From NCBI RefSeq assembly GCF_015644585.1, contig NZ_JADOBI010000017.1, positions 1 through 64,000 of the forward strand: a DNA stretch of 64,000 nucleotides, in the 5' to 3' direction. The notes beneath the pieces were generated by a model. That model was given only the letters and a program-made list of their open reading frames with translations. It was not told where the DNA came from and did not search any database. The translations under genes and the position numbers were made by a program. This stretch comes from Rahnella laticis (GTDB lineage: Bacteria > Pseudomonadota > Gammaproteobacteria > Enterobacterales > Enterobacteriaceae). Below are positions 11,282 to 21,397 of the stretch, one piece after another (the first letter of the stretch is position 1; every line of letters begins with the position of its first letter).

Positions 11282-11992
11282 TCAATTCACTTCCACATCA
11301 ATATGCAGTGCGTCATAACGCCAGTATTCCAAATCGCAGTCGATGACCCGGTCGTTCTGGTCCCGGTTGGTGCGCGTGATAAATAACGCCGGGCTGCCGG
11401 AGGCGACTTTCAGCGCGTGCGACGCTTCTTTTGTCAGCAGCGTCGGCACCATATCAAACCGTACGCGCCCGTAATGAATATCGTAACGCGATGCATACAG
11501 ATCGGTCAGGGAAGACGTTAAATCTGCATCAAGAATGTCACTGAAATACAACGGGTTGAGGTAATGCTCGACATAAAGTACCGGGCGTTTATCGATATAG
11601 CGTAACCGGCGGATGCAGATCACATTACTGGCGGAGGGCAGCAATAATTTCTGGCAAACGGTATCGCTGGCGATGCAGTGTCTGGCGTCGATGACCTCCG
11701 TCTGAGCGCTGCGCCCCTGATCTTTTGCCATTGCGTGAAAATGGCTGCGCTGCAACGGGTTATAAATAATGCGCGGTGGCGAAACAAACCAGCCCCGGCG
11801 CACTTCACGATAAATCAGCCCCTGCGCTTCCAGATGGCCTAACGCTTCACGCAGCGTAATGCGGGTCGTGGAAAACTGTTCACTCAACGCGCGCTCAGAA
11901 GGCAGCCTTCCCTCGGCAGAAAATGCCCCGGCCGCAATACTTTCGCTCAATGCCTTGCAGATAACGGCAAGGGTGGTCTGCGATTCATTCAT
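11282..11992 (-). CDS. GntR-family (HutC/UTRA) regulator of the adjacent operon
   Basis: The 236-residue protein has an N-terminal GntR winged helix (LPSERALSEQFSTTRITLREALGHLEAQGLIYR, about 28-60) and a C-terminal UTRA ligand domain (about 90-230), including RLRYIDKRPVLYVEHYLNP. This is the HutC/PhnF/PhnR architecture. It is transcribed away from the transport operon starting at 12197. The shared gap contains an 11/12 match to the HutC-type operator TGGTCTAGACCA. Repression of that operon until a phosphorus-containing ligand binds is the likely role. It resembles PhnR of aminoethylphosphonate systems, but orthology is not established. Confidence 0.85.
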   Translation of the reverse strand: MNESQTTLAVICKALSESIAAGAFSAEGRLPSERALSEQFSTTRITLREALGHLEAQGLIYREVRRGWFVSPPRIIYNPLQRSHFHAMAKDQGRSAQTEVIDARHCIASDTVCQKLLLPSASNVICIRRLRYIDKRPVLYVEHYLNPLYFSDILDADLTSSLTDLYASRYDIHYGRVRFDMVPTLLTKEASHALKVASGSPALFITRTNRDQNDRVIDCDLEYWRYDALHIDVEVN

Positions 11993-12101
11993 CGGTCAGC
12001 AAGCCTCATTTCAGTGCGTTTTTGCACCAATCCGACTCCGCATTGCATAAATTATGTGCGCTTGTTAACAGCGATAAGCTTAAAACTGCTGCTTTTTCAC
12101 G

Positions 12102-12119
12102 CTGACATATAATTATCAC
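12102..12119 (+). promoter_or_regulatory. Pho box (PhoB binding site)
   Basis: CTGACATATAATTATCAC matches the 18-base Pho box CTGTCATAWAWCTGTCAY at 15 positions, including both 11-base-spaced half-sites in large part. TAGATT (12130-12135), 10 bases downstream, is a plausible -10 at the spacing usual for PhoB-activated promoters. The operon downstream encodes organophosphorus uptake and hydrolysis functions, which agrees with phosphate-starvation control. Confidence 0.7.
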
Positions 12120-12146
12120 AATTGATCGTTAGATTGGCTTGGTTCT

Positions 12147-12164
12147 TGCTGGACTAGACCAGCA
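12147..12164 (+). promoter_or_regulatory. HutC-type operator, probable site of the divergent GntR regulator
   Basis: TGCTGG and CCAGCA form a perfect inverted repeat around ACTAGA. The core TGGACTAGACCA differs at one base from TGGTCTAGACCA, the operator bound by HutC-subfamily regulators such as NagR/DasR and similar to PhnF sites. It lies just downstream of the presumed -10, where a bound repressor would block transcription. Confidence 0.7.
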
Positions 12165-12196
12165 TTTCACACACACTATCATCTGGAGCATCCGTT

Positions 12197-13255
12197 ATGA
12201 AACAGTTGTTCGCTTCTGTGTTAACCAGCGCGCTTGTCCTCTCCGCATCATCGGCTTTTGCCGCTGAACCTCCTGCTGAACTCCTGAAAGCGGCACAAGC
12301 CGAAGGCACGGTAAACAGCGTCGGTATGCCTGATGACTGGGCTAACTGGAAAGATACCTGGAATGATTTGAGCACCAAATACGGCCTGAAACACAGTGAT
12401 ACCGATATGAGTTCTGCGCAGGAAATCGCGAAATTCCTCGCTGAAAAAGATAATGCCAGTGCGGATATTGGTGATGTGGGTGCTGCATTCGGTCCGGTAG
12501 CGGTTCAGAAAGGCGTCACACAGCCTTATAAACCGACCACCTGGGATCAGGTGCCAGACTGGGCCAAAGACAAAGACGGGATGTGGGCACTCGCTTACAC
12601 CGGAACCATCGCGTTCATTATTGATAAGTCTCAGGTCAAAGATGCACCACATAGCTGGGCTGATTTGCTGAAGGGCAAATACAAAGTCACCATCGGTGAT
12701 GTCAGCACCGCTGCGCAGGCAGCAAACGGTGTTCTGGCCGCTACATACGCAATGGGCGGTAATGAGCAGAACCTGAAACCGGGTCTCGAATACTTCGGTA
12801 AGCTGGCGAAAGCAGGGCGTCTGAGCCTGACTAACCCGGTTATTGCTTCTCTGGAAAAAGGTGAAGTGCAAGTTGGCGTGGTCTGGGACTTCAACGGTCT
12901 GAACTATCGCGACAAAATCGACAAAACCCGCTTCGACGTGGTTATCCCTTCTGACGGTTCTATCACCTCGGGTTACACCACCATTATCAACAAATTCGGC
13001 AAACACCCGAATGCCGCCAAACTGGCGCGTGAATACATCTTCTCCGATGCCGGTCAGATCAACCTGGCGCGTGGCTATGCCCGTCCAATCCGTGCTGATC
13101 ACATCACTCTGCCAGACGACGTGAAAGCCAAACTGCTGCCATCCAGTGAATATAAAAATGCTCACCCGATTGCCGATCCGGCTGCATGGGATAAGAGCGC
13201 TAAAACGCTCCCTCGCCTGTGGCAGGAAAACGTCATGATCAACATGCAGCAATAA
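12197..13255 (+). CDS. periplasmic ABC-transporter substrate-binding protein
   Basis: The 352-residue protein begins with a clear signal peptide (MKQLFASVLTSALVLSASSAFA, cut before AEPP). It has a type-2 periplasmic-binding fold of the iron/spermidine/aminoethylphosphonate group. It is the first gene of a complete uptake operon, behind a Pho box and a HutC-type operator, and has TGGAGC ahead of its ATG. The next gene starts 80 bases later. The ligand is not evident from sequence; operon content suggests a phosphate ester, phosphodiester or phosphonate. Relation to PhnS of Salmonella is possible but unproven. Confidence 0.85.
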   Translation: MKQLFASVLTSALVLSASSAFAAEPPAELLKAAQAEGTVNSVGMPDDWANWKDTWNDLSTKYGLKHSDTDMSSAQEIAKFLAEKDNASADIGDVGAAFGPVAVQKGVTQPYKPTTWDQVPDWAKDKDGMWALAYTGTIAFIIDKSQVKDAPHSWADLLKGKYKVTIGDVSTAAQAANGVLAATYAMGGNEQNLKPGLEYFGKLAKAGRLSLTNPVIASLEKGEVQVGVVWDFNGLNYRDKIDKTRFDVVIPSDGSITSGYTTIINKFGKHPNAAKLAREYIFSDAGQINLARGYARPIRADHITLPDDVKAKLLPSSEYKNAHPIADPAAWDKSAKTLPRLWQENVMINMQQ

Positions 13256-13335
13256 TTTCCTGAATTAAAAAATAGAAAAACCGGGCAGCGAAAGCATTGA
13301 TTAATTACAACACCTGCAAGAAAGGCAAAAGTGTA

Positions 13336-14133
13336 ATGAAGAGCATTCTGGTAGTACTCGACGGCCTCAATTATCAGGTCGCCCAAGACGCAATGGGATA
13401 TTTACAGGCGCAATGTGCCGCAGGGCGCGGGCGTTTGTATCAACTGGAATGCGAACTGCCTTCGCTGTCCCGGCCGCTTTACGAATGCATTCTCACCGGC
13501 ATCACGCCGGTAGAAAGCGGCATCGTTCATAACCACGTTGACCGTTTATCGACTCAACGCAGTATTTTTCATTATGCCCGCGACGCCGGTCTGACGACGG
13601 CTGCTGCGGCCTATCACTGGGTCAGCGAGCTGTATAACCGCACGCCGTTTGATCCGCCGCGCGACCGCCATACCAGCGATGAATCCCTGGCTATTCAGCA
13701 CGGCCATTTTTATTACGATGATGCTTATCCTGATTCGCATTTATTCGACGATGCGGAAAGTCTGCGCCGTCGCCACGACCCGGATTTCCTGCTTATCCAC
13801 CCGATGAACATTGATGATGCGGGCCACAAATTCGGGCTTTCGACGCCGCAATACCGCAACAAAGCGCGCACAGCGGATGGCATTCTTTCGCACTATTTGG
13901 GCGACTGGCTGGAAGCAGGTTATCAGGTGATTGTTACCGCCGACCACGGAATGAACGATGACCGCAGTCACGGCGGGATTTTGCCGGAGGAGCGTCAGGT
14001 GCCGCTGTTTGTCTTCGGTAGTGCGTTCAGCATGAAAGACGCCGAACCCCTGCAAACTGAGCTGTGCGGCACGGTTTGTCAGATCCTCAATATTGCCCAC
14101 GATAAGCCACACTGCGCGGCATTACTGGCCTGA
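13336..14133 (+). CDS. cytoplasmic alkaline-phosphatase-superfamily phosphodiesterase/hydrolase
   Basis: The 265-residue protein has the type I phosphodiesterase/nucleotide pyrophosphatase plan. VLDG (Asp9) is a metal ligand, the nucleophile is probably Ser45 in LPSLSRPLYE, and NIDDAGHKFG, TADHGMNDD and SHGG supply the other metal ligands. No signal peptide is present, so it should act in the cytoplasm on an imported substrate. I chose ATG 13336 (MKSILVVLDG) with AAAGG upstream rather than an in-frame codon at 13297. It is short for the family, with no large cap. The substrate is unknown; phosphonoacetate hydrolase belongs to the same superfamily but is much longer. Confidence 0.8.
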   Translation: MKSILVVLDGLNYQVAQDAMGYLQAQCAAGRGRLYQLECELPSLSRPLYECILTGITPVESGIVHNHVDRLSTQRSIFHYARDAGLTTAAAAYHWVSELYNRTPFDPPRDRHTSDESLAIQHGHFYYDDAYPDSHLFDDAESLRRRHDPDFLLIHPMNIDDAGHKFGLSTPQYRNKARTADGILSHYLGDWLEAGYQVIVTADHGMNDDRSHGGILPEERQVPLFVFGSAFSMKDAEPLQTELCGTVCQILNIAHDKPHCAALLA

Positions 14134-14159
14134 ACTCCCTCACTTTTAAAGGATCCCCG

Positions 14160-15002
14160 ATGAAAGGTAAGTGGATTGCGGCGCTGTTTATTTTGCCGTT
14201 TCTGGTGTTTTTCATCGCTTTCCAGCTGGCGCCGCTGGCCTGGATTGCGGTGAGCAGTTTTTACAGCGAAACCTATGAAGCCTGGGGGCTGGGTAATTAC
14301 ACCGACATTCTGACCTCTCCGTTTTATTTACAGGCCATGCGCATCTCGCTGGATATCTCAATCTGGTCGAGTTTGTACGGTTTGATTATTGCGTTAGTGG
14401 GCAGTTACTCACTTCGCCAGCTAGGCCCGACAAAGCTTCATGATTTCGTCATGTCCTTTACTAACATGACCAGCAACTTTGCAGGCGTGCCGCTGGCGTT
14501 TGCCTTCGTCATCCTGCTCGGTCTGAACGGATGCCTGACGTTATTGCTGCGTAAATATGGCCTGATGGAACATTTCGACCTGTATTCGAAAGACGGGCTG
14601 ATTGTGCTCTACACCTATTTCCAGATCCCGCTTGGCGTTTTGCTGATGTATCCGGCCTTTGATGCGTTGCGTGAAGACTGGCGCGAATCGGCTGCATTGC
14701 TGGGCGCGGGGCGCTGGAGTTACTGGCGACATATCGGTATCCCGGTTCTGTTCCCGGCGCTGCTGGGCACTTTCGTTATTTTGCTGGCCAATGCCCTCGG
14801 CGCGTATGCCACGGTGTACGCGCTGACCACCGGTAACTTCAACGTGGTGCCGGTTCGTATCGCCGCGCTGGTGTCGGGTGATATTTCCCTCGACCCGAAT
14901 ATAGGGAGCGCGCTGGCGATGTTGCTGGTGGTACTGATGGCGTTTATCACGCTGATTCATCAGTGGTTATTGCGCAAAAGTTATCTCAGTCAGCGTAGCT
15001 GA
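14160..15002 (+). CDS. ABC transporter permease (first of two)
   Basis: This 280-residue inner-membrane protein has about six hydrophobic segments. The EAA loop is in DALREDWRESAALLGAGRWSYWRHIGIPVLFPALL, where the ATPase docks. It resembles the AfuB/PotB/PhnU permease group. AAAGGA precedes the ATG, and it starts 26 bases after the hydrolase gene. A second permease follows, so the transporter is probably a heterodimer. The substrate is inferred only from the operon. Confidence 0.88.
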   Translation: MKGKWIAALFILPFLVFFIAFQLAPLAWIAVSSFYSETYEAWGLGNYTDILTSPFYLQAMRISLDISIWSSLYGLIIALVGSYSLRQLGPTKLHDFVMSFTNMTSNFAGVPLAFAFVILLGLNGCLTLLLRKYGLMEHFDLYSKDGLIVLYTYFQIPLGVLLMYPAFDALREDWRESAALLGAGRWSYWRHIGIPVLFPALLGTFVILLANALGAYATVYALTTGNFNVVPVRIAALVSGDISLDPNIGSALAMLLVVLMAFITLIHQWLLRKSYLSQRS

Positions 15003-15023
15003 TTGCTGAAAAAGGAACGTGAG

Positions 15024-15809
15024 ATGTCGCGATCTGAAGCGATTTACCACCGTGTGGTGATCTGGATTTTGTTGATTGTTTTGATGCTGCCGCTGCTGGC
15101 GACGCTGGTTTATGCGCTGGTGCTGGAATGGGGAGCCACGATTTTGCCGAGCGGTTTCACGCTCAAATGGCTGGTGGAGTTGTGGAGCGATCCGCGCTTC
15201 CTGATTGCGCTCTGGCACTCGCTGCTGGTCTGTTTCGGCACGCTTTTCCTGTCGCTGGTGCTGATCCTGCCGCTTATGTTTGTGATTGCTTACTATTTCC
15301 CTAAGCTCGATGCGCTGATGAATATTCTCATCCTGCTGCCGTTTGCCGTGCCGCCGGTCGTCTCATCCGTTGGCCTGATGCAGCTCTATTCTGGCGGGCC
15401 TCTCGCGCTGACCGGCACTCCGTGGATCCTGATCGGCTGTTACTTCACGATAGCGCTGCCGTTTATCTACCGTGCCATCTCCAACAACATGCAGGCGATA
15501 AACTTGCGTGACCTGATGGACGCCGCGCATCTGCTGGGCGCAAGCACCTGGAAAGCCGCGCTGCTGGTGGTATTACCGAACTTACGCAAGGGCGGAACCA
15601 TCGCCGTATTGCTGTCGTTTTCCTTCCTGATTGGGGAATTCGTTTTCGCCAACCTGCTGGCGGGCAGCCGTTACGAAACGGTTCAGGTTTATCTCTATAA
15701 CATGCGCAATGGCAGCGGCCATTTCACCAGCGCACTGGTTATCTCCTATTTCATGGTCGTCCTGATTTTCACCTGGGTGGCAAACATGCTGAACAAAGGA
15801 AAGAGCTGA
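15024..15809 (+). CDS. ABC transporter permease (second of two)
   Basis: The 261-residue protein has about six membrane segments and an EAA loop in DLMDAAHLLGASTWKAALLVVLPNL. I chose ATG 15024 (MSRSEAIYHRV), which has AAAGGA 7 bases upstream. An in-frame TTG at 15003 abuts the previous stop and lacks a ribosome site. The ATPase gene begins 2 bases after its stop, which indicates translational coupling. It resembles PotC/PhnV-type permeases. Confidence 0.88.
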   Translation: MSRSEAIYHRVVIWILLIVLMLPLLATLVYALVLEWGATILPSGFTLKWLVELWSDPRFLIALWHSLLVCFGTLFLSLVLILPLMFVIAYYFPKLDALMNILILLPFAVPPVVSSVGLMQLYSGGPLALTGTPWILIGCYFTIALPFIYRAISNNMQAINLRDLMDAAHLLGASTWKAALLVVLPNLRKGGTIAVLLSFSFLIGEFVFANLLAGSRYETVQVYLYNMRNGSGHFTSALVISYFMVVLIFTWVANMLNKGKS

Positions 15810-15811
15810 TT

Positions 15812-16804
15812 ATGTCGTATTTACAGGTCACTCAACTTAACAAGTCTTACGGCCCGACTCAGATTTTCAACAACATCGATTTCTCCGCAAAAGAGGGGGA
15901 ATTTGTGACGCTGCTGGGGCCAAGCGGCTGCGGGAAGTCTACGTTGCTGCGCTGTCTGGCCGGTCTGACATCCGTCGACAGTGGCAAAATTCTGATTCAG
16001 GGGCAGGACATCGTGCCGCTGCCACCGCAACAGCGCGGTATCGGCATGGTTTTTCAGAGCTATGCGCTTTTTCCTAATATGACGGTGGAAGCCAACGTCG
16101 CGTTCGGTCTGAAAATGCAGAAGATACCCGCTTCCGAAGTGCATCGCCGCGTGGGCGAAGTGCTCGAACTGGTGGAAATGAACGATTACGCCAAACGTTA
16201 CCCGCATCAGCTCTCCGGCGGTCAGTGTCAGCGTGTGGCGCTGGCGCGTTCGCTGGTAACACAGCCGCGTTTGCTATTGCTCGATGAACCGTTGTCTGCG
16301 CTGGATGCCCGGATCCGCAAGCATTTGCGCGAACAAATCCGCCGGATCCAGCGCGAAATGAACCTCACCGCCATTTTCGTGACACACGATCAGGAAGAAG
16401 CCCTGACTATGTCAGACCGGATTGTGCTGATGAACAAAGGACAAATCGTCCAAAATGCCGATGCCGAGACCTTGTATACTGAGCCGGTCGATGCTTTCGC
16501 CGCCGGTTTTATTGGCAGCTATAATTTGCTGAGTGCCGAACAGGCGCTGGCGCTGACAGGCCAGACGTACACTGGCCGTGTTGCCATTCGTCCGGAGTCC
16601 GTGACGATTTGCGCGGCCGGACAGGACATTCCGGCTAAAATTCTCAGCCACAGCCTGCTGGGCAATGTCGTGCGGTATCGCGTTTTAGCGCATGGCGTCG
16701 AGCTTTCTGTGGATGTCTTAAACCGTTCTGTGGCCTCACTTCGCGCCGATGGCAGCGATATTGGTCTACAGTTAGATCTTGTTACGTTACGGGAAGTTGC
16801 ATGA
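15812..16804 (+). CDS. ABC transporter ATP-binding protein
   Basis: The 330-residue nucleotide-binding subunit has Walker A GPSGCGKST at residues 36-44, a Q loop in VFQSYALF, signature LSGGQCQRVALARS near 134-147, Walker B LLLLDEP, and a switch His in FVTHDQEE. The C-terminal 100 residues look like a TOBE-type regulatory domain (GRVAIRPESVTI). The signature has Cys where Gln is usual (LSGGQCQRV). It belongs to the PotA/FbpC/PhnT group. The stop overlaps the next start by four bases (ATGA). Confidence 0.92.
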   Translation: MSYLQVTQLNKSYGPTQIFNNIDFSAKEGEFVTLLGPSGCGKSTLLRCLAGLTSVDSGKILIQGQDIVPLPPQQRGIGMVFQSYALFPNMTVEANVAFGLKMQKIPASEVHRRVGEVLELVEMNDYAKRYPHQLSGGQCQRVALARSLVTQPRLLLLDEPLSALDARIRKHLREQIRRIQREMNLTAIFVTHDQEEALTMSDRIVLMNKGQIVQNADAETLYTEPVDAFAAGFIGSYNLLSAEQALALTGQTYTGRVAIRPESVTICAAGQDIPAKILSHSLLGNVVRYRVLAHGVELSVDVLNRSVASLRADGSDIGLQLDLVTLREVA

Positions 16805-17457
16805 AACTGGCGCTGTTTGATCTCGATGAAACCCTGATTAGCGGCGACTGTTCCAGCTTGTGGTCAGCCTACATGGTGGCAAAAGGCTGGGTGGCTGATG
16901 AGCAGTCTTTCCTGCAACAAGATGCCGCACTGATGCAGCAATATGCGGTCGGCAAGATGGATATGCAGGAGTACATGCGTTGTACTCTGGTGCCGCTGAT
17001 TGATCGCCGTGAAAGTGACGTCGCGGCAATGGTCGAAAATTACATTCAGGATGTGATTGCTCCGCGTATTTATATGCAGGCGCGCGAGTGTCTGGCCGCT
17101 CATCGCGCTCAGGGCGACCGGACGGTGATTATTTCCGCGTCAGGCGAACATCTGGTAAGGCCGATTGCCCGTTTCCTTGGTGTTGATGAAACACTGGCGA
17201 TTGGTGTTGAAATACAAGACGGGCGCTTTACCGGTGCCACGCAGGGGACGATGACCTATCGCGAAGGCAAAGTTTCGCGGTTGCTGCATCTCATCAATCA
17301 GGACGAAACCCTGTTACAAGAAGCCAGTTTCTATTCGGATTCTCACAATGACCTGCCGTTACTGACCCGCGTGGGGCAGCCGGTGGCAGTGAATCCGGAC
17401 GCTGTCCTGCTCCAGCACGCCCGGCAGGCAGGATGGCCGATTTATGCCTGGCGTTAA
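16801..17457 (+). CDS. HAD-superfamily IB phosphatase
   Basis: The 218-residue cytoplasmic protein has all HAD motifs: FDLDET with Asp7 (nucleophile) and Asp9, SASGEH as motif II, a conserved Lys in REGKVSRL, and DSHNDLPLL with the final Asp. An inserted helical cap follows motif I, as in SerB-like subfamily IB phosphatases. It overlaps the ATPase gene by four bases and ends the operon. With the upstream hydrolase it could release inorganic phosphate from a monoester product of the imported compound. That order of reactions is inference. Confidence 0.85.
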   Translation: MKLALFDLDETLISGDCSSLWSAYMVAKGWVADEQSFLQQDAALMQQYAVGKMDMQEYMRCTLVPLIDRRESDVAAMVENYIQDVIAPRIYMQARECLAAHRAQGDRTVIISASGEHLVRPIARFLGVDETLAIGVEIQDGRFTGATQGTMTYREGKVSRLLHLINQDETLLQEASFYSDSHNDLPLLTRVGQPVAVNPDAVLLQHARQAGWPIYAWR

Positions 17458-17539: not shown

Positions 17540-20500
17540 TTAAAAGCTGATTTTGATACCCGTTGTGACCTGCCAGTAATCAATCCCTTCTGCCTCAAGA
17601 CGTTTCTGATATTGCCCGCCGACACTCAGAGAGACATTGGGCATAAACGTATTTACCAGACCTACATCCAGCAGCGCCGTGCTTCCCGGCACACCCGTTG
17701 AGAAATCACTGCATTCGGCGCTATGCACATCACCAATGGCAACGGTTCCGTCATTACTGAAATCTTTAGTCAAACGCGTACTTGCGATAAACGCCCATTT
17801 TCCGGCTTTCAGGGTATCCCAGTCATACCGATACCTCAGGCCGATATGACCGGTAGGACGTACGATGTTGTCGTAATCGACATGAGCACCATCAACATCA
17901 TTAAAATCATCGACTTTCAGGTATTGAACTCCGGCGCCAATGAGAGGCGTGAGCTGATGCTGCCCAAAAGTGAACGGGTAGCCTAAATCCAGTGTGGTCC
18001 CAAAGGATTTGGCATTAATATCAGCCACATCGCCGCCACGAAGATCTGTGGAAACTGTGCCATCATATTTCGCGGCGTCCAGTTCCCATTCCGCCAGTAA
18101 ACCGTCGGTTTGTTTGTAAACGAGCAGCGTTGAAAGACCCCAGGCGGTGTAGTGCGTTTTGCTGTCACCATCTGCCGCATCTGGCGTGACGTCCAGCTCT
18201 GCGCGGGAAAGCCCGAAATTCAGCCCGAGAGACTGTCTTTCATCCTCACGCTGCAAGACCTTGCCGCCAAATAACCAGCCTTCCTGTTTTTGCTTATAGT
18301 CGTAACCGTAATCTTTAAAGCTCTGTCCGGAGTGATACGTATCTTCCCCGTTGAGATACTGGAAGAAAATGTTAACCCTTTTATCGTCGAGCAGAAGAGC
18401 CTGATCGTGGAAACTGGTGTTCAGGCGGTTGCTGTAACTGAGTAACGCCGACGGCAGGGACAAATATGAAGACACCTGTGGCGTCACCGCAGATCGGCTA
18501 TCGCTATTTTCAGGTGTCGGGGCTACTCCGTCGTCGTCGGGATCAGGAATGGGTGTTGTGTCACCGTCATCGGGATCAGGAATGGGCGTTGTGTCACCGT
18601 CATCGGGATCCGGAATGGGTGTTGTGCCACCGTCATCGGGATCAGGAATGGGCGTTGTGCCACCGTCGTCGGGATCAGGAATGGGATCGGCTGTCGGCTC
18701 GGTATTGTCGTTTTCACTGAGCATTCTGTTTTGCAGGCGATAGTCCCAGTACTGACCTCCGGAACCTGCAACGGCACGCTGATCTGCGGAGCTGCGACCC
18801 GGAGCAAAAGCGTAGAGCGTATAGGCATATGCGCCCCTTGCGACGTATTCTCCCGCCAGCGCAAAGGTATTTTTACCGGCATTCCCTCCAACCTGAATCA
18901 GGGAAATCCCTTCCTGATTATCCGCTACGCCATCGTTATCGCTGTCGGTGAATATCCCGCTGCCATCGGGTGTGACGGAGACCATGATCGGCTTGCCAGC
19001 CGAAATGACATCACCGTCAATGAGCAGCCGGTCGTACTGTAAATCATCAGGATTCAGCCGGGCTCGCAGGTTGATCACATCATTATCACCCGCGGACAGA
19101 TTTCCGTTAACCCGCATTGTCGCAGGGCTAATGCTGTCTGTGGCGGCCTGATCGTGATCATAATACGGAGCCAGCACGACATTATCTTTCATAATCAGAT
19201 CAGCGATGCTGGCATTGCCGGAAAATGAAGTGCCGTTTTCCAGTGTCAGCGTTGAAGTCAGCGAACCTTCCAGCACAAAATCGCCGTTCTTAACGGTCGT
19301 ACCGCCCGAAAACGTATTATCGCTGTACATCAGAAGTGTACCCCAGCCGTCTTTAATCAGGCTGCCGGTCCCTTCCAGTGCAGCGGTAATGATGGCGTTG
19401 GCAGCACCGACGGTGCTTTTATCGCTGGCGCTACCGGCAATAACGGACAATGTGGCGTTATCGCTTAGCATTACATTTCCGGCGAGCGTGCTGCGGCTGT
19501 GCATTTGTAATGTCGAATTTTCGCCCAGCGTAATATCAGATTCGAGCGTTCCATGTTCGCCCAAGGTGAGCAGTCCGCCCTGATTCAGTTTTAACGTGGC
19601 GATCTGATAAGTTTCGTCTATCCAGTCATTACTGAAGACAACGCCCCCCGCGTGAGGTGTTTGCTTTCCTGCGAGCGTCAGGCCGCCGTTGAGTACGGTG
19701 AGATCATTAAGATACGCGCCGCCGGTCAGGGAATAGTTGTTGGCGCTTTTCGTCGAATTCAAAATCACGTTCATTCCCGACGGGTTTTCGGGGGATCCCA
19801 GCTGGCCCATAAAGGTTTCGGATTTTGTATTCGCCAGCGTCAGCGTGGAACGGTCATCTGTGTTGGCATTGATGATGGTGGCACCGGCATCACTGTGATT
19901 GATGGTCGTGAAACTCATGTCATAACCGTTGAGATCCAGTACGCCGCCACGATAGCCAAAGAAAATCTGGTCGGAGGCAACCTGGCTTTCACCGCCCAGC
20001 CGTACCGTAGGGCGGCCACTTACAATCGTTACTGATGAAAATGCCTGATGGTGTCCCGCGCTGTCATCTTGCTGGGCAAGTACGACAGTTCCGTCGCCGA
20101 CGTTTAATGCGCCTAAGTTATCGCCCGTCGCGTTGACATACAGGGTACCAGCACCGACTTTATGCAGGCTGTCTCCCGCTACGCCTTTAACTTCCCAGTC
20201 GACGGTTTTGCTGGCGTCAACTTCAATTCCGCCGCCCATCCAGGTGTTTCCTGCACCTTCTGCGGAAACCACGCGATAGTCATTGGAGAACTGTAGTTTA
20301 CCCGCGCCCTGATTGATGCTGGCATCCAGCACGATCAGCCCGCCTTCGCCGTTAAAGCGCAAATCCTTCGAGGCATCCAGCGACGGATTGCGGACATCGG
20401 TCCCGACATTTCCGGCGATAATGTCCTCAATAGTAAGAATAAACTGCCCGGGTAAATCCGGGTCAGCGCCGTGCCATTTCCAGACGGAATCCCCCTGAAC

Positions 20501-21397
20501 GATATCGCCCACAGCGCCTGTGCCGGTCCAGTGAATATCGCCACTGGCGGCGACGTCAGTCACATCCGGATCGGTATTTTGGGCAAATATACTGTTAATG
20601 AAGTCGGTCTGAAGCGCTAATGCATTCGTTTTTGAGGTATGCGTCGCGCCATTTTCAACCAAGATCCCGGCGGTGAGAACTCCATACATTTTCCATTTCT
20701 TATCAACATTGTCATAAACCAAAATCTGGCTGCCACTGTCCCCGGAGCTACCGGCAATATCTAAAGGGGAGCTTGTATCATTGTTGATCCACGTGATGCC
20801 ATTTTGGGATATTTGAGAGGGTTTTAATGTCCCTGCACTTTTCCATGCGTAAGTGTTGGGTGTCAGTAAATTCAGATGCTGTCCTGTCGAATCAATCTGA
20901 TACTGATAGCCAGCACCCACACGAGCAAAATAGGTATAGCGTCCTGTATTTCTCTTATCGTAAACATCTGCGGGATCAACCATTTCGACCGGGGCGACTT
21001 CAGTAACGACTTTATTTAGACGCGCTGCGCTAAAATCTTCGGTGGGATGATTATTGTAATTAATAACAAGATAATCGTTGCTGTATTTTGCGCCGGTAGC
21101 AAAGTTGGTGTTTTCGTACCATCCGTTATGCTTAACGGTTGTGACATAGCTACTGGCGATGAGCGTGGTATAGCCGGTTTTCGCTGCGCTGGAAAAATCG
21201 GGGATAGAAAAAGGAAGGAATCCGGCAGAAGTGCCATCAATATTAAAGACTTCTACATTTTCTGCACCGGGTTTGTATTTCCCGAGGTTCTCGGCAAAAT
21301 CCCGATACTCCTGTACAGGAACATTTTCATTCATAACACCGGCTTCAGCACTAAATGTGCAAAGCGATATTACGCCAACCAATAAGTCGTACTTCAT
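17540..21397 (-). CDS. S6-family serine protease autotransporter
   Basis: The 1285-residue protein is a type Va autotransporter. After a short signal (MKYDLLVGVISLCTFSAEA), the passenger opens with an S6 peptidase domain whose triad is visible: His90 in VTTVKHNG, Asp121 in HPTEDFSAARLNK and Ser221 in GDSGS. A repetitive beta-helix stem follows to about 900. An acidic Pro-rich linker (about 910-965, PIPDPDDGGTT repeats) then precedes the C-terminal beta-barrel, which ends in the expected Phe (VTTGIKISF). AAGG precedes the ATG. Length and triad resemble SPATE/IgA-protease relatives, but the signal peptide lacks the long extended region typical of SPATEs. The substrate is unknown. Confidence 0.92.
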   Translation of the reverse strand: MKYDLLVGVISLCTFSAEAGVMNENVPVQEYRDFAENLGKYKPGAENVEVFNIDGTSAGFLPFSIPDFSSAAKTGYTTLIASSYVTTVKHNGWYENTNFATGAKYSNDYLVINYNNHPTEDFSAARLNKVVTEVAPVEMVDPADVYDKRNTGRYTYFARVGAGYQYQIDSTGQHLNLLTPNTYAWKSAGTLKPSQISQNGITWINNDTSSPLDIAGSSGDSGSQILVYDNVDKKWKMYGVLTAGILVENGATHTSKTNALALQTDFINSIFAQNTDPDVTDVAASGDIHWTGTGAVGDIVQGDSVWKWHGADPDLPGQFILTIEDIIAGNVGTDVRNPSLDASKDLRFNGEGGLIVLDASINQGAGKLQFSNDYRVVSAEGAGNTWMGGGIEVDASKTVDWEVKGVAGDSLHKVGAGTLYVNATGDNLGALNVGDGTVVLAQQDDSAGHHQAFSSVTIVSGRPTVRLGGESQVASDQIFFGYRGGVLDLNGYDMSFTTINHSDAGATIINANTDDRSTLTLANTKSETFMGQLGSPENPSGMNVILNSTKSANNYSLTGGAYLNDLTVLNGGLTLAGKQTPHAGGVVFSNDWIDETYQIATLKLNQGGLLTLGEHGTLESDITLGENSTLQMHSRSTLAGNVMLSDNATLSVIAGSASDKSTVGAANAIITAALEGTGSLIKDGWGTLLMYSDNTFSGGTTVKNGDFVLEGSLTSTLTLENGTSFSGNASIADLIMKDNVVLAPYYDHDQAATDSISPATMRVNGNLSAGDNDVINLRARLNPDDLQYDRLLIDGDVISAGKPIMVSVTPDGSGIFTDSDNDGVADNQEGISLIQVGGNAGKNTFALAGEYVARGAYAYTLYAFAPGRSSADQRAVAGSGGQYWDYRLQNRMLSENDNTEPTADPIPDPDDGGTTPIPDPDDGGTTPIPDPDDGDTTPIPDPDDGDTTPIPDPDDDGVAPTPENSDSRSAVTPQVSSYLSLPSALLSYSNRLNTSFHDQALLLDDKRVNIFFQYLNGEDTYHSGQSFKDYGYDYKQKQEGWLFGGKVLQREDERQSLGLNFGLSRAELDVTPDAADGDSKTHYTAWGLSTLLVYKQTDGLLAEWELDAAKYDGTVSTDLRGGDVADINAKSFGTTLDLGYPFTFGQHQLTPLIGAGVQYLKVDDFNDVDGAHVDYDNIVRPTGHIGLRYRYDWDTLKAGKWAFIASTRLTKDFSNDGTVAIGDVHSAECSDFSTGVPGSTALLDVGLVNTFMPNVSLSVGGQYQKRLEAEGIDYWQVTTGIKISF
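18539..18687 (-). repeat. 33-bp in-frame tandem repeat in the autotransporter linker
   Basis: Four complete 33-bp units and part of a fifth begin at 18539 (GATC at 18541, 18574, 18607, 18640, 18673). Each encodes the 11-residue unit PIPDPDDGGTT or a G/D variant. Units differ at only a few bases, so the array is recent and could change copy number without a frameshift. It encodes the acidic, proline-rich spacer between passenger and barrel. Confidence 0.93.

Follow-up and report, generated by a model that had tools for sequence, protein, structure and literature searches.

A Pho-box-preceded operon of Rahnella laticis predicted to import and hydrolyse a small phosphodiester, possibly a phospholipid head group

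Our study reports on an operon in the window, the 64,000-nucleotide stretch of Rahnella laticis DNA (contig NZ_JADOBI010000017.1, positions 1 to 64,000) that was analysed. Seven genes lie at positions 11282-17457: a run of six on the plus strand (12197-17457), encoding a periplasmic binding protein, a short hydrolase, two permeases, an ATPase and a HAD-IB phosphatase, and a divergent gene for a GntR/UTRA regulator on the minus strand (Table 1). An earlier note, made from the sequence letters, had placed these genes in this order and on these strands and had read them as a Pho-controlled system for organophosphorus uptake and degradation; the Pfam domains match its account and its overall interpretation is supported. 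The wide spread of the operon, its operator palindrome, the link of that palindrome to the gene pchP and the earlier appearance in print of probable homologues (PhnD3; Campylobacter jejuni Cj0728-Cj0734) had escaped it. We hold the architecture and regulation of the operon to be highly probable and propose from comparative sequence evidence, with a probability of about one half, that the substrate is glycerophosphocholine or glycerophosphoethanolamine, which would be imported whole and broken down by a diesterase and then by the HAD phosphatase.

Table 1. Genes and predicted control sites of the operon (positions in the window).
Feature	Position	Strand	Domain or sequence
GntR/UTRA regulator	11282..11992	-	PF00392 + PF07702; nearest named family PhnR
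Pho box, predicted PhoB site	12102..12119	+	CTGACATATAATTATCAC
Operator palindrome of GntR regulator (predicted)	12147..12164	.	TGCTGGACTAGACCAGCA
Periplasmic binding protein (SBP_bac_6)	12197..13255	+	PF13343
Compact cytoplasmic NPP-type phosphodiesterase (predicted), 265 aa	13336..14133	+	Phosphodiest PF01663
ABC permease 1	14160..15002	+	PF00528 (BPD_transp_1)
ABC permease 2	15024..15809	+	PF00528 (BPD_transp_1)
ABC ATPase	15812..16804	+	PF00005 (ABC_tran)
HAD-IB phosphatase, optional member	16801..17457	+	PF12710

The Pho box agrees with the consensus at 15 of 18 positions, and none of 50 letter shuffles was as good. Just 3' of it lies the palindrome, an 18-mer that occurs once in the genome; the closest other site found has two mismatches and falls within what looks by eye like a glycosidase reading frame. 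Both sites were counted in 96 upstream regions, 88 of them distinct, with letter shuffles as a mild control and with the reservation that the counts overstate independence because the sequences are related: a plus-strand Pho box of at least 13/18 lies 80-125 bp before the start of the binding-protein gene in 79 of the 88 distinct regions (0.76% of letter shuffles), and the 12-bp core of the palindrome, TGGNCTAGNCCA, is exact in 83 and has at most one mismatch in all 88 (0.03% and 0.89% of letter shuffles). In most Pseudomonas regions a minus-strand Pho box facing gntR is listed as well. The box on which the claim of Pho control had been based is real and is kept upstream of the operons of relatives, and this conserved, predicted site places the operon in the putative Pho regulon.

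ATG 13336 is the most probable start of the hydrolase; a TTG at 13297 is an alternative. It is indeed short, as had been claimed, at 265 aa compared with the 342 positions of the Pfam model and 383-429 aa in the listed solved NPP and PhnA relatives. The absence of a signal peptide is borne out too: there is no room for one on either the hydrolase or the HAD protein, because the predicted metal ligand Asp9 of the former and the sequence DLDET of the latter, presumably the HAD motif, both fall within the first 11 residues. With 62.1 bits against PF01663 (gathering score 23) the hydrolase belongs among the type I phosphodiesterases/NPPs. Asp9, Asp160, His164, Asp203, His204, His212, Ser45 and Asn66 are kept in all 17 compared homologues; the two-metal ligands and the nucleophile were assigned by NPP alignment together with known motifs. 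The best matches of the predicted fold are NPP diesterases, in agreement with the phosphodiester that the earlier note had guessed as a substrate, and the top Foldseek match by E-value is the catalytic domain of a colistin-resistance enzyme (6bne, TMq 0.59), which we take to be a phosphoethanolamine transferase. The modelled structure is the compact core of an NPP-type enzyme, with serine as the nucleophile, and not that of the phosphonoacetate hydrolase PhnA. The latter identity was rejected on a score of 20 bits with TIGR02335 (cut-off 407.55) and on the Foldseek rank; PhnA is also missing from the 50 VIA matches listed, which by that alone excludes nothing. By alignment, the equivalents of the Ser71 nucleophile and of Tyr75 of the choline-head-group diesterase ENPP6 are present in the hydrolase, and Arg46 and Arg111 are invariant in eight compared sequences of its own subfamily.

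The other proteins were compared with curated family models, each score being judged against the cut-off of its own model. The regulator reaches 269.9 bits with the PhnR model TIGR03337 and misses the cut-off of 296.75, though not by far. Likeness to phnSTUV had been said to be confined to transport, and even there the models score far under their cut-offs: 68.0 and 60.4 bits for the binding protein with the PhnS models (310 and 395.3), 28.8 for PhnU (283.45), 82.9 for PhnV by permease 2 (358.7), and 294.5 for PhnT by the ATPase (499.15). With PhnT2 the ATPase reaches 377.1 bits (457.7). By these scores the transporter does not qualify as a PhnSTUV 2-aminoethylphosphonate transporter. The binding protein has a solved homologue, 5t1p (E 5e-156), which we take to be a C. 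jejuni binding protein, and is 56-85% identical to five homologues, one of them from an Enterococcus faecium plasmid; its distant solved relatives include 6wce, which binds pyridoxal phosphate, and 4r72, which was deposited as part of an iron transporter and is presumably the hexose-phosphate binder AfuA. The HAD protein scores 173.4 bits with the HAD-IB hydrolase model TIGR01490 (cut-off 98.3). It was rejected as a histidinol phosphatase (NF052360, 219.4 bits, cut-off 280), as was a PHP-domain protein encoded beside the E. faecium operon, for which such families are among the nearest models with their cut-offs missed; their nearness to both proteins hints at a small phosphomonoester. The operon has no PhnW or PhnX, as had been noted, and no match of PhnX level was found in the genome, the best reaching 46.6 bits (cut-off 220), at which a phosphonatase pathway is not indicated. 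A class-V aminotransferase near one hydrolase homologue (L128) was considered as PhnW and set aside, since its best model is the SufS family and all listed models are under their cut-offs.

A homology survey of the kind the earlier note had proposed finds the system to be widespread. A scan of named genomes confirmed 560 relatives, of which the best 80, all from gammaproteobacterial genera by their titles, were retained. Relatives of the operon occur in Enterobacterales, Pseudomonas, Vibrio and Halomonas and on E. faecium plasmids, and the closest named ones are Rahnella species, with hydrolase identities of up to 97%. There is one copy of the hydrolase in its own genome (5.73 Mb, 23 contigs). 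Within its own family 27 of 149 genomes have it, four of the matches being fragments and one carrying an internal stop. Across the phylum 41 of 398 genomes have it at E<=1e-30, and in f12, a family that matches to named sequences led us to read as Pseudomonadaceae, it is found in 26 of 59 genomes. The regulator is present in 76 of the 80 named loci; the other four are three short contigs that end nearby and a decayed locus of Erwinia persicina (L052), in which the hydrolase alone was detected. By tblastn, HAD is present in 63 loci and not found in 17, of which 16 retain the transporter and hydrolase (Serratia 10, Lonsdalea 3, Dickeya 2, Erwinia psidii 1) and the last is the E. persicina locus. 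The hydrolase is carried by 198 plasmid records, 179 of them from Enterococcus. In the one E. faecium plasmid region examined (L016), genes for the binding protein, hydrolase, permeases and ATPase lie among insertion-sequence elements with the divergent PHP-domain gene, and a HAD match is absent; one P. aeruginosa plasmid examined has the operon including HAD, with gntR extending to the start of the record. Of the shared proteins, the binding protein is the best conserved between the window and E. faecium (56%, versus 38-47% for the others). No place in 5,426 Escherichia coli genomes covered 80% of a 4-kb query, and the 25 matches listed are pieces of ATPases. In one close relative about 900 bases (L004:2296-3207) separate the binding protein and hydrolase, compared with fewer than 300 in the named loci.

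The gene content, both control sites, the conservation and the predicted fold and residues of the enzyme come from these comparisons; from them we infer the following course, in which repression and palindrome binding by the regulator, the direction of transport, both enzyme reactions, the inducer and the substrate are predictions. Under phosphate starvation PhoB at the Pho box would activate the operon, and the GntR repressor at the palindrome would hold it off until a substrate-related inducer appears. Through the binding protein and ABC importer a small phosphodiester would enter the cytoplasm, where the short NPP-type enzyme would cut it, and the HAD phosphatase, or another phosphatase of the cell where HAD is missing, would release phosphate from the monoester so formed. 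The substrate would most likely be the head group of a deacylated phospholipid, either glycerophosphocholine or glycerophosphoethanolamine, yielding phosphocholine or phosphoethanolamine and then choline or ethanolamine and phosphate. Three associations favour a choline or ethanolamine head group: the operator at pchP, an enzyme pair kept with a different transporter, and sister hydrolases linked to tmpA and tmpB.

The first association comes from the f12 genomes, in which the pattern TGGWCTAGWCCA has 25 exact sites; only the positions of these carry weight, not their number, because the reversed pattern, used as a control, gives 85 forward matches across these genomes. By coordinates 14 sites lie at the operon, 8 at pchP and 3 elsewhere (L164-L166), with no related gene noticed near these three. 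The 14 are expected, because the pattern was derived from the operon, and the 8 are not. They stand 42-77 bp before the pchP gene (L162:4500 and the corresponding places in seven other genomes), which we identified by its match to the solved phosphorylcholine phosphatase 4as2 and which is present in 18 of the 59 genomes. The exact site at pchP occurs in all five genomes of genus g181 and three of four of g220, with differing central bases; being limited to these, it looks like recruitment in two genera. According to excerpts of one study (PMC3170909), PchP acts on phosphorylcholine and phosphorylethanolamine, and the known regulators of P. aeruginosa pchP are GbdR and NtrC; the palindrome suggests a further control of this gene.

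The second association is found in a genome of the same class but another family (L140), where a hydrolase and HAD protein (60% and 42% identical, genes overlapping by four bases) precede a Dpp-type binding protein and transporter, so that the pair appears to have outlasted a swap of transporter. The third concerns 2-(trimethylammonio)ethylphosphonate, the C-P analogue of phosphocholine. On a Labrenzia plasmid (L198:7299-9879) and in L200:7666-10276, LysR-tmpA-tmpB is followed directly by the gene of a sister hydrolase, with TmpA and TmpB scores of 577.5 and 351.8 in the former and 560.5 and 340.7 in the latter, all over the curated cut-offs of 400 and 300. TmpA is described in excerpts of PMC10574752 as highly specific for trimethylated aminoethylphosphonate, and the arrangement suggests esters of this compound as natural substrates. 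Among 289 genomes of the class of G214, read as Alphaproteobacteria in the same way as f12 was assigned, 20 have a TmpB-like protein (E<=1e-40, 38-85% identical, some perhaps PhnZ-type), 9 a hydrolase homologue and 5 both (Fisher p = 1e-4, ignoring phylogeny). The homologues of this class otherwise adjoin Dpp-type transporters and, in one genus (L130-L134), some also an S15-type peptidase, which hints at a different substrate, peptide-like or other, in that branch. We entertain, as a doubtful extension, that soluble diesterases for choline head groups make up a bacterial clade founded on this hydrolase and serve two parallel routes: in one, ester-linked phosphocholine would be finished by the HAD phosphatase, in a cytoplasmic parallel to ENPP6-PHOSPHO1; in the other, the phosphonate twin would be finished by TmpA-TmpB. 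If so, esters of 2-(trimethylammonio)ethylphosphonate would be an overlooked natural phosphorus source.

Several observations weigh against glycerophosphocholine or glycerophosphoethanolamine, or against parts of the model, beside the high count of the reversed pattern. Ten of the 18 pchP genes are without the exact site, one of these genomes, G579, having the 14-mer with a single mismatch, and four of the ten (genus g357) carry the hydrolase and have no exact site anywhere. The tmpAB-linked homologues are just 34-37% identical, are without Arg46 and Arg111 and form a separate subfamily, and one of the nine homologue-bearing genomes among the 289 has the hydrolase beside a tmpB-like gene. The choline pocket of ENPP6 is not kept, Tyr72, Tyr188 and Glu190 being replaced by Arg46, His155 and Met157, and the invariant arginines could indicate an anionic substrate. 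None of the recurrent flanking clusters examined resembled a betaine or choline gene. In excerpts of a proteomic study of P. putida BIRD-1 (PMC5082522), the probable homologue PhnD3 is listed as unaffected by PhoBR in cells (2.69 versus 2.31).

The foremost alternative, a clear step below even odds, retains the architecture and regulation and supposes another small phosphodiester, for example glycerophosphoserine, glycerophosphoglycerol or a sugar phosphodiester, with the pchP site as a side recruitment. The NPP-type fold suits it, the conserved arginines suit an extra anionic group and the ENPP6 pocket is lost; that 22 of the 25 exact operator sites lie at the operon or pchP argues against it. 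A phosphonate or phosphonate-ester system, in which the importer would carry a 2-aminoethylphosphonate-type compound or its ester and the hydrolase would free the phosphonate for a genomic C-P lyase, is rather unlikely. The PhnR-like regulator, the PhnT2-like ATPase, the sister hydrolases inside tmpA-tmpB operons and the name PhnD3 of the probable P. putida homologue (PMC5082522, in part) speak for it, and a phosphonate ester keeps some standing because PhnJ of C-P lyase is encoded elsewhere in the genome (495 bits) and a PhnX-level match is lacking. That same lack counts against phosphonatase-type cleavage, the partner of the hydrolase in most loci is the HAD-IB phosphatase and not a C-P cleaving enzyme, and the PhnA model is missed by a wide span. 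Direct import of a phosphomonoester such as phosphocholine or phosphoethanolamine, with both enzymes as alternative phosphatases, is improbable: the distant phosphate-ester binders related to the binding protein, the monoesterase activity of PchP and the loci lacking HAD would fit, whereas the fold is closest to NPP diesterases and the hydrolase is retained where HAD is absent. An iron or polyamine transporter beside the hydrolases by chance would account for the matches, under cut-offs, of the binding protein and ATPase to ferric and polyamine transporters, and is made extremely improbable by the joint conservation of the Pho box, PhnR-like regulator and hydrolase.

Import and hydrolysis of organic phosphorus under Pho control is already known in kind; this operon is distinct in having a binding protein of its own, a small NPP-type enzyme and a phosphatase that some relatives lack. 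PhnSTUV/PhnR shares the PhnR-like GntR regulator and related binding-protein and ATPase families, whereas the present operon has two phosphoesterases in place of PhnW/PhnX. The Ugp/UgpQ and agrocinopine (Acc) systems likewise import a phosphodiester and cleave it in the cytoplasm, with other families of binding protein and diesterase. The vertebrate pair ENPP6 and PHOSPHO1, the latter of the HAD class, shares the NPP fold, the Ser nucleophile, the Tyr75 equivalent and the succession of a second phosphatase, and would act in a similar way if our model holds; the window hydrolase differs in its small size, cytoplasmic location and replaced pocket residues. That ENPP6 and PHOSPHO1 form a pathway, from glycerophosphocholine diesterase to phosphocholine/phosphoethanolamine phosphatase, is itself put as a hypothesis in excerpts of PMC7872340. 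The TmpA-TmpB pathway is linked to the sister hydrolases, whereas the window operon is without TmpAB.

Earlier work has probably come across the operon in P. putida and C. jejuni, and the excerpts cited here assign it no substrate. Excerpts of PMC5082522 report the GntR regulator PPUBIRD1_3890 and ABC ATPase PPUBIRD1_3895 of P. putida BIRD-1 as silenced in a phoBR mutant, and the binding protein PPUBIRD1_3891 (PhnD3) as raised on phosphate depletion, in cells in the phoBR mutant too, while its exoproteome level dropped. The locus tags of the three fall at n, n+1 and n+5, as in the window operon. Partial text of other sources terms C. jejuni Cj0728-Cj0734 phosphate-regulated (PMC1892558), finds Cj0732 and PhoX both raised in chicken-juice biofilms (PMC11202532) and lists cj0727-cj0732 among operons lacking an assigned function (PMC7176700). 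The PhnD3 and C. jejuni loci are probably the same operon as ours, judging by tag order, not by sequence. These proteomic data on probable homologues, with the conservation of the operon, support the control by phosphate starvation, the import and the two-step cytoplasmic hydrolysis that had been read from the sequence. We found no substrate assignment for the operon in the literature searched, which mostly lacks subscription journals. Soil, plant and gut bacteria commonly carry the operon, for which the annotations seen name a generic ABC transporter and an alkaline phosphatase family protein; the probable binding protein of P. putida has been given both an iron-transport and a phosphonate-binding label. 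Now that a substrate class is proposed, two control sites are predicted and pchP is added as a second regulon gene, a few assays could test the function of the operon; if true, our proposal would explain how many starved bacteria use lipid head groups as phosphorus.

The surroundings of the operon vary. By eye, metH lies on one side of the locus and a Na/Pi-cotransporter-like gene on the other in Serratia (L043) and in the decayed E. persicina locus, while the flanking genes of a Dickeya locus (L039) differ from these. No choline or phosphonate gene was seen by eye among the recurrent flanking clusters in L044-L099, and ten flanking genes from five further loci were uninformative. In the window, metH (by eye) lies 5' of the operon and a large autotransporter-like protein (by eye) is encoded directly 3' of it on the minus strand (17540-21397), with a GDSGS motif and a PIPDPDDGGTT repeat.

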